This document shows positions 16,570 through 17,466 of a stretch of DNA of 50,065 bases, in pieces. The stretch is from Anaerococcus sp. AGMB09787 (GTDB taxonomy: Bacteria > Bacillota > Clostridia > Tissierellales > Peptoniphilaceae): the NCBI RefSeq assembly GCF_022808955.1, contig NZ_JAKZEY010000004.1, forward strand, positions 1 to 50,065. Reading direction: 5' to 3'. Below the pieces are notes generated by a model, which saw only the letters and a list, made by a program, of their open reading frames with translations, searched no databases and was not told the DNA's origin. The translations under genes and the position numbers were made by a program. Numbering within the stretch: the stretch's first letter is position 1; every line of letters begins with the position of its first letter.

Positions 16570-17466
16570 ATGAAAAATATGGGAGCCAAGAAAACCGAAC
16601 TAAATGAACTTCCGAGGATATCCGACAGGGCAAGCTTTCTCTACGTAGACCATGCCAAAATATCGAGGTCTGACTCAGCCATTACAATCCATAAGGCAGA
16701 GGGGATTATAAAAGTCCCGGTTGCTATGCTGGGAGTCTTGCTCCTAGGACCAGGGACGGATATTAGCCATAGGGCAGTAGAGCTAATAGGAGATGCGGGA
16801 ACTAGCATGGTTTGGGTTGGAGAAAGGGGAGTAAGACACTATGCCCATGGCAGGGCCCTAAGCCATTCGACAAGATTTCTAGAAAAACAGGCTAGACTAT
16901 TTGCCAACAGAAATAGCAGACTAAGGGTAGCAAGAAAAATGTATGCCATGAGATTTCCATGAGAAGACTTCGATAAACTTACCATGCAACAACTAAGGGG
17001 CAGGGAAGGAGCTAGAGTAAGAAGTACCTATAGAAAATATGCAAGGGAATACAAGGTAGCCTGGGATAAGAGAGAATACGACATAGACAACTTCGAAGAA
17101 GGGACTGTAGCAAACCAGGCCCTATCTGCCACCAACCAAGCCCTCTATGGGATAGTCTATAGCATAATAGTAGCCCTAGGAATGTCGGCAGGCCTTGGCT
17201 TTATCCACACAGGTCACGACCTCTCCTTTGTCTATGACATAGCAGACCTATACAAGGCAGAAATAACCATCCCCCTATCCTTTGAAATCGCCTCCCAATA
17301 TGACAAAACAGATGACATAGGGAGAATATCAAGACTAGCCATGCGTGATAAAATAGCTGATGGCAAGCTCGCACAGAGAATAGTAAAAGACCTCCAAGAC
17401 CTTATGGAAATAGAAGAAGATCGAGTCGATCTTGATATCATTCACCTCTGGGATGACAAAGAATAG
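16570..17466 (+). pseudogene. cas1: cas1 (type I-E integrase) with an in-frame TGA
   Basis: The frame reads as a 298-codon type I-E Cas1, of normal length, but codon 131 (16960-16962) is TGA. No shift is involved; the 16570-16962 and 16984-17466 parts are in the same frame. The context is MRFP-stop-EDFDKLTMQQLRG. By my recollection of the family, relatives have glycine at this place, so one GGA-to-TGA change explains it. Catalytic residues lie in the downstream part (Glu146, His213, Asp223, Asp226, matching E. coli E141, H208, D218, D221). Restart at the ATG at 16984 is conceivable, but I see no good ribosome-binding site and the N-terminal dimerisation domain would be missing. Readthrough or a sequencing error are alternatives. 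Confidence 0.85.

Follow-up and report, generated by a model that had tools for sequence, protein, structure and literature searches.

A lone TGA codon interrupts cas1 in a type I-E CRISPR-Cas locus of Anaerococcus sp. AGMB09787

Cas1 is the enzyme through which a CRISPR immune system takes up new spacers. The Cas1-Cas2/DEDDh complex of the Megasphaera type I-E CRISPR-Cas system has been described as a trimmer-integrase (PMC10284694). Truncated forms of Cas1 have been described in type I systems of other bacteria. The type I-C system of Streptococcus mutans UA159 is considered probably inactive on account of a truncated Cas1 (PMC7316486, PMC9522601), with a truncated cas8c named too in the first of these sources, and in the type I-B remnants of Bacteroides fragilis cas1 is truncated, the array is kept and acquisition is thought to be lost (PMC5704556). 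Among the papers found on premature stop codons in cas1 and spacer acquisition in type I-E systems, no title or opening of an abstract describes the present case, and none was found on a cas1 pseudogene or on adaptation lost through a cas1 frameshift.

The stretch of DNA analysed here, referred to as the window, is the entire 50,065-base contig C34 of a draft genome of 2.0 Mb that comprises 53 contigs. It carries on its forward strand a type I-E CRISPR-Cas locus (8998-20196) in the order cas3, cas8e, cse2, cas7e, cas5e, cas6e, cas1e, cas2e-DEDDh and array. The cas3 gene (8998-11787) matches the cas3_core and HD models above cut-off and aligns with solved Cas3 relatives. It is followed by cas8e (cse1/casA; 11792-13531; TIGR02547, 63.2 bits, just under the cut-off of 70.05), cse2 (casB; 13528-14130; TIGR02548, 131 bits), cas7e (14120-15217; TIGR01869, 275.6 bits), cas5e (15207-15935; TIGR01868, 132 bits) and cas6e (15939-16565; TIGR01907, 76.3 bits). 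The models are thus matched in the order of a type I-E operon, all above cut-off except that of cas8e. Every gene of the locus except cas1 is one open frame, which supports the statement in the preliminary description that interference stays intact. Downstream of cas1, cas2e is fused to a DnaQ-like DEDDh exonuclease (17482-18381) within an intact open frame of 299 residues, with both the cas2e domain (TIGR01873, 55 bits against a cut-off of 33.15, residues 9-87) and the DEDDh domain (TIGR00573, 73.8 bits against 71.5, residues 128-285) above cut-off and a dN/dS of 0.112 against the sister species, G019.

The array (18405-20196, forward strand) comprises 29 repeats, a truncated last repeat (20176-20196) and 29 spacers. 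Its repeats are 28 bases long, 28 of them exact and one with a single mismatch, and its spacers of 33-34 bases accord with the roughly 33 bases of a type I-E array lying beside its operon. The 23 bases separating cas2 from the first repeat (18382-18404) form a gap that is of equal length and alike in G019 and in a second relative, G020; together with the truncated repeat at the far end, this places the leader end next to cas2. Loss of the leader was rejected on the constancy of the same gap. Twenty-five of the first 28 spacers are distinct, since spacers 13-15 recur as 17-19 with one unrelated spacer between the two trios (19165-19591), a pattern that we attribute to array rearrangement or an assembly effect rather than to normal acquisition. 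A self-targeting spacer was considered as a cause of decay and found no evidence in the genome, where the best match outside the array reached 35.6 bits (24 bases, 92%). Matches of the spacers to phage targets, at E 0.01 or worse, were uninformative.

The cas1e gene (16570-17466, forward strand) translates as 130 residues, a TGA at 16960-16962, 167 residues and a TAG. Codons 1-130 (16570-16959) match positions 2-121 of the NCBIfam profile TIGR03638 at 150 bits, and codons 132-298 with the final TAG (16963-17466), the open catalytic part downstream of the stop, match positions 126-268 at 183 bits in the same frame. The TGA at codon 131 is the sole break, and a whole-genome search that reads through stops scores the locus at 347.5 bits with one TGA inside. 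Translation and profile matches on both sides therefore confirm the earlier claim of an intact cas1 frame broken at this codon; a working type I-E acquisition module needs an uninterrupted Cas1e frame, which is not present here. A search of the genome for a second Cas1 that might act in trans gave none at E 0.001. Three pairs of neighbouring open segments share a frame within the window: the cas1 halves, cas5e/cas6e and cas1/cas2. The latter two pairs are separate genes, leaving cas1 as the only real split.

GGA occupies the position of codon 131 in both of the nearest relatives found, L082 from G019 (96% amino acid identity across its last 160 residues) and L083 from G020 (76%). The proposed change of GGA to TGA by one base is supported by this, and Gly is the likely local ancestral state, judging from these two genes. 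The related claim that Gly is to be expected here holds for the two closest relatives found and not as a rule of type I-E proteins. Across 100 aligned relatives, which include four genes fetched twice from two collections, two split genes and seven relatives from viral contigs, the column reads G 41, N 27, D 24, E 3, S 2, K 2 and A 1, with a stop in none of the 100 and Trp likewise absent. With the column this variable, Gly at codon 131 is neither conserved nor required in the family. By contrast with it, the residues R128 and F129 preceding the site and E146 following it are invariant (100/100), so the stop falls in a tolerant stretch between conserved blocks. As first described, the catalytic residues all lie past the stop: E146, H213 and D226, which we take to correspond to E141, H208 and D221 of E. 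coli Cas1, are the same in all 100 relatives. A stop at a Gly codon needs no special cause, given that 89 of the 297 sense codons of cas1 can become a stop in a single step by 106 routes, nine of which start from GGA. The two split genes in the alignment, L067 (Rothia aeria AP017895.1, at about 4812) and L099 (a viral contig, at about 5276), each have cas1e divided across two frames by a frameshift or sequencing error. In a plasmid collection searched for cas1, the matches were just pieces covering at most 17% of the gene.

TGA functions as a stop in this genome. It terminates cas3, cas8e and cas6e and makes up 10 of 32 stops counted among the genes of the window, and release factor RF2 is found above cut-off with a CTT TGA C site near codon 26, presumably the programmed frameshift motif of that gene. 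An apparent break in RF2, flagged by two TAA codons, was rejected because the match had continued upstream past the programmed frameshift and there followed the wrong frame. Genome-wide recoding of TGA as Gly or Trp was rejected in turn, given the use of TGA as a stop and the retention of RF2 with its frameshift site. A selenoprotein reading was rejected because in genome searches the best matches for SelB (180.1 bits against a cut-off of 242.25) and for tRNA-Sec (43.5 against 47, at a tRNA-Ser) both lie below cut-off. The genome yielded 42 tRNA matches, of which the window contains 18 and fetched loci 24, all assigned anticodons by ARAGORN; none of the 42 has the UGA-reading anticodon UCA, and a suppressor tRNA is thus without support. 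No tRNA-Ala occurs among them, which indicates that the draft genome lacks some tRNA genes and tells to that extent against the reading of the TGA as an effective nonsense mutation.

Leakage at the stop is a further consideration. Near-cognate tRNA-Trp might insert Trp at the UGA and yield a little full-length Cas1, so that acquisition is throttled. The codon-131 column tolerates seven different residues (G, N, D, E, S, K and A, although not Trp), the dN/dS of cas1 stays low, and many in-frame stops in bacterial genes have been argued not to mark pseudogenes (PMC7918605). Against this, the genome encodes RF2 with its frameshift site, no UGA-reading anticodon occurs among the 42 tRNAs found, the RNA fold at the site is unremarkable (z -0.36) and the stop is shared by none of the 100 relatives. 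The one tRNA-Trp found has, by eye, A9, a U11-A24 pair and U27-G43 as the top pair of its anticodon stem. Overexpression in E. coli of a C27A tRNA-Trp, in which the top pair is unpinned, raised UGA readthrough about 2.5-fold, whereas C27U gave no extra flexibility in simulation (PMC13092985), and U27-G43 therefore speaks against leakage. We see no reason to expect strong UGA readthrough and regard a leaky stop as improbable. Equally doubtful is the more specific proposal that the TGA has been retained as a leaky brake, allowing a trickle of full-length Cas1 and rare acquisition while autoimmunity is avoided and interference remains full. The preliminary description had named readthrough as a possible escape from the stop; with RF2 present, no UGA anticodon in the 42 tRNAs, no selenocysteine factors above cut-off and no unusual RNA fold, that suggestion finds no specific support.

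A second escape proposed at the outset was a restarted fragment. The first in-frame start past the stop is the ATG of Met139 (16984-16986, forward strand), eight codons downstream, and its product would be without the first 138 residues. A working enzyme assembled from the 130-residue piece and a piece restarted at Met139 is made conceivable by this ATG and by the position of the break, which, in alignments to solved chains, falls in a stretch unaligned between residues 124 and 133 of E. coli Cas1. However, no ribosome-binding site is visible by eye in the 25 bases before 16984, Met139 is ancestral (Met in 77 of the 100 relatives), and no stop divides any of the other 32 Cas1e that exceed the cut-off in the order. 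We consider a two-piece Cas1 extremely unlikely, and the restart proposal is weakened too.

The remainder of cas1 keeps a strong purifying-selection pattern, which points to a young loss. Against the sister species G019, cas1 has 93.0% DNA identity with dN 0.017, dS 0.295 and dN/dS 0.056. The ratio is 0.019 upstream of the stop and 0.096 downstream, which marks the downstream part as less constrained, and the downstream changes are split evenly, four on the present lineage and four on that of the sister, giving no pointer to decay in the present lineage. Polarisation with G020 assigns to the present lineage 15 synonymous changes and 6 non-synonymous ones, the stop among them, and to the sister lineage 15 synonymous and 4 non-synonymous changes, with 20 synonymous changes and 1 non-synonymous change left unplaced; among the 4 of the sister is a CGG codon at W165, which would be silent if CGG means Trp. 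About 101 non-synonymous changes would be expected on the present lineage if it were unconstrained, compared with the 6 seen (upper 95% limit 13.1), so that constraint on cas1 can have been absent over no more than about 13% of its lineage. Nor does the present cas1 depart from its relatives at any of the 54 columns in which at least 97 of 100 agree. The earlier conclusion that an undecayed remainder makes the change recent is upheld by these figures, although the lack of other decay also fits an error or a tolerated stop.

The same comparison with the sister locus (L188), over 15207-18381, gives 78% DNA identity and a dS of about 1.15 for cas5e and cas6e, against 93% and about 0.28 for cas1 and cas2. 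The suspicion that cas1-cas2 had been exchanged with the sister was dropped, as a chromosomal stretch of the window is 89-90% identical and cas5e/cas6e are therefore the outliers. As far as these distances indicate, it seems that the interference part either has undergone exchange or is evolving faster.

The main rival to a nonsense mutation is an error of sequencing, consensus or assembly, or the adoption of a minority allele by the consensus, with cas1 intact in the living strain. It gains weight from the draft state of the genome in its 53 contigs, from the otherwise undamaged cas1, and from the singularity of the stop. Among 249 genomes of the order, 33 Cas1e lie above the family cut-off and 32 of them are without an in-frame stop, the single exception being the present genome with its one TGA. 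Among 391 genomes of the class there are 11 Cas1e above cut-off in 10 genomes, of which 7 in 6 genomes are additional, and none of these 7 has an in-frame stop. Both counts leave aside partial matches below cut-off in G018 (at a contig end), G389 and G401, which might be further broken copies. On the other side, the change is a clean substitution and not an indel, the window has no other same-frame split, and other genomes also show single nonsense codons in their cas genes. In the same 249 genomes, cas7e taken as a control was found above cut-off 35 times, once with an in-frame TAA (in G069, at G069:C1:1338016-1339050). The window cas genes were also aligned to up to 13 stretches of the same genus, giving 107 copies (just 3 for cas7e, and with G020, present as two overlapping stretches, counted twice for some genes). 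Seven stops were seen. Five of them fall on the penultimate residue of cas5e and another close to the end of cse2; the single internal stop is a TAA in the G030 cas3 gene (L205), at the position of residue 550 of the window cas3. The cas7e and G030 cas3 cases make isolated nonsense codons in cas genes uncommon yet ordinary, and on balance we hold an error to be unlikely, although far from negligible.

The same alignments bear on a separate matter, the meaning of CGG in Anaerococcus. CGG has been predicted to encode Trp in this genus, together with a Trp-like tRNA-CCG, in a report whose single-copy alignments gave no conserved positions supporting the reassignment (PMC8629427). Codons in the cas genes of the window and of 13 Anaerococcus relatives were compared with the residue in the others, requiring at least 4 comparisons and agreement in the column of at least 70% of the others. 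Twelve CGG codons had enough comparisons; 11 stand in agreeing columns, all 11 of them Trp, and the twelfth is in a variable cas5e column. These 11 cases represent eight positions, one recurring in two species and one in three, with G020 doubled for some genes. Under the same rule CGA falls in an Arg column in 29 of 29 cases, CGT in 60 of 62 and CGC in 20 of 24. The window CGG is codon 474 of cas3 (10417-10419), where 12 of the 12 relatives read have TGG and both solved Cas3 alignments shown have Trp; the other loci with CGG codons are L188, L089, L094, L084, L086, L088, L200, L202, L203 and L206. The present genome has a tRNA with a CCG anticodon (C3:22938-23008, L187) that ARAGORN labels Arg and whose anticodon stem, by eye, pairs poorly; it may be the Trp-like tRNA-CCG described for the genus. 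Conserved-Trp positions in these alignments thus support the published prediction. The finding has no bearing on the TGA in cas1.

Our preferred reading, which we consider probable, is a recent and real nonsense mutation in cas1 that has stopped acquisition and left interference intact; the likelihoods attached in words to this and the other readings are judgements. In such a model a Gly codon recently became TGA at codon 131, and translation would end there with a 130-residue piece that lacks E146, H213 and D226. No working Cas1-Cas2/DEDDh integrase should then form and the array would gain no spacers, while Cascade and Cas3 could still use the existing 29 spacers. As the piece is without catalytic residues and the genome has no other Cas1, acquisition is predicted from the sequence to be off, with Cascade, Cas3 and the array still able to interfere. 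A real stop would make the strain a natural frozen-memory mutant, whose type I-E system can defend and cannot learn, with the loss captured ahead of any further decay. Compared with its intact sister species, the strain would help in determining the frequency and the cost of losing acquisition. Taken alone, the case amounts to an ordinary nonsense mutation affecting a gene with known losses of this kind.

The locus resembles that of Megasphaera in that Cas1e adjoins a Cas2-DEDDh fusion (PMC10284694), and both halves of the present Cas1 align end to end with the solved Megasphaera chains 8fy9 and 8fyc. Unlike the Megasphaera gene, the present cas1 has a stop at codon 131 and the enzyme should not be made. 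Like that of S. mutans UA159, it is a type I system with a truncated Cas1; there, however, the subtype is I-C and a truncated cas8c is also named in one of the two sources, whereas here the subtype is I-E and the interference genes are open. It also recalls the type I-B remnants of B. fragilis, in which cas1 is cut and the array remains in place (PMC5704556), although the deletion described there also took cas3, cas4, cas7 and cas8, and here one base is changed. The cas1 stop of Anaerococcus sp. AGMB09787 is one more case of the known truncated-cas1 kind.
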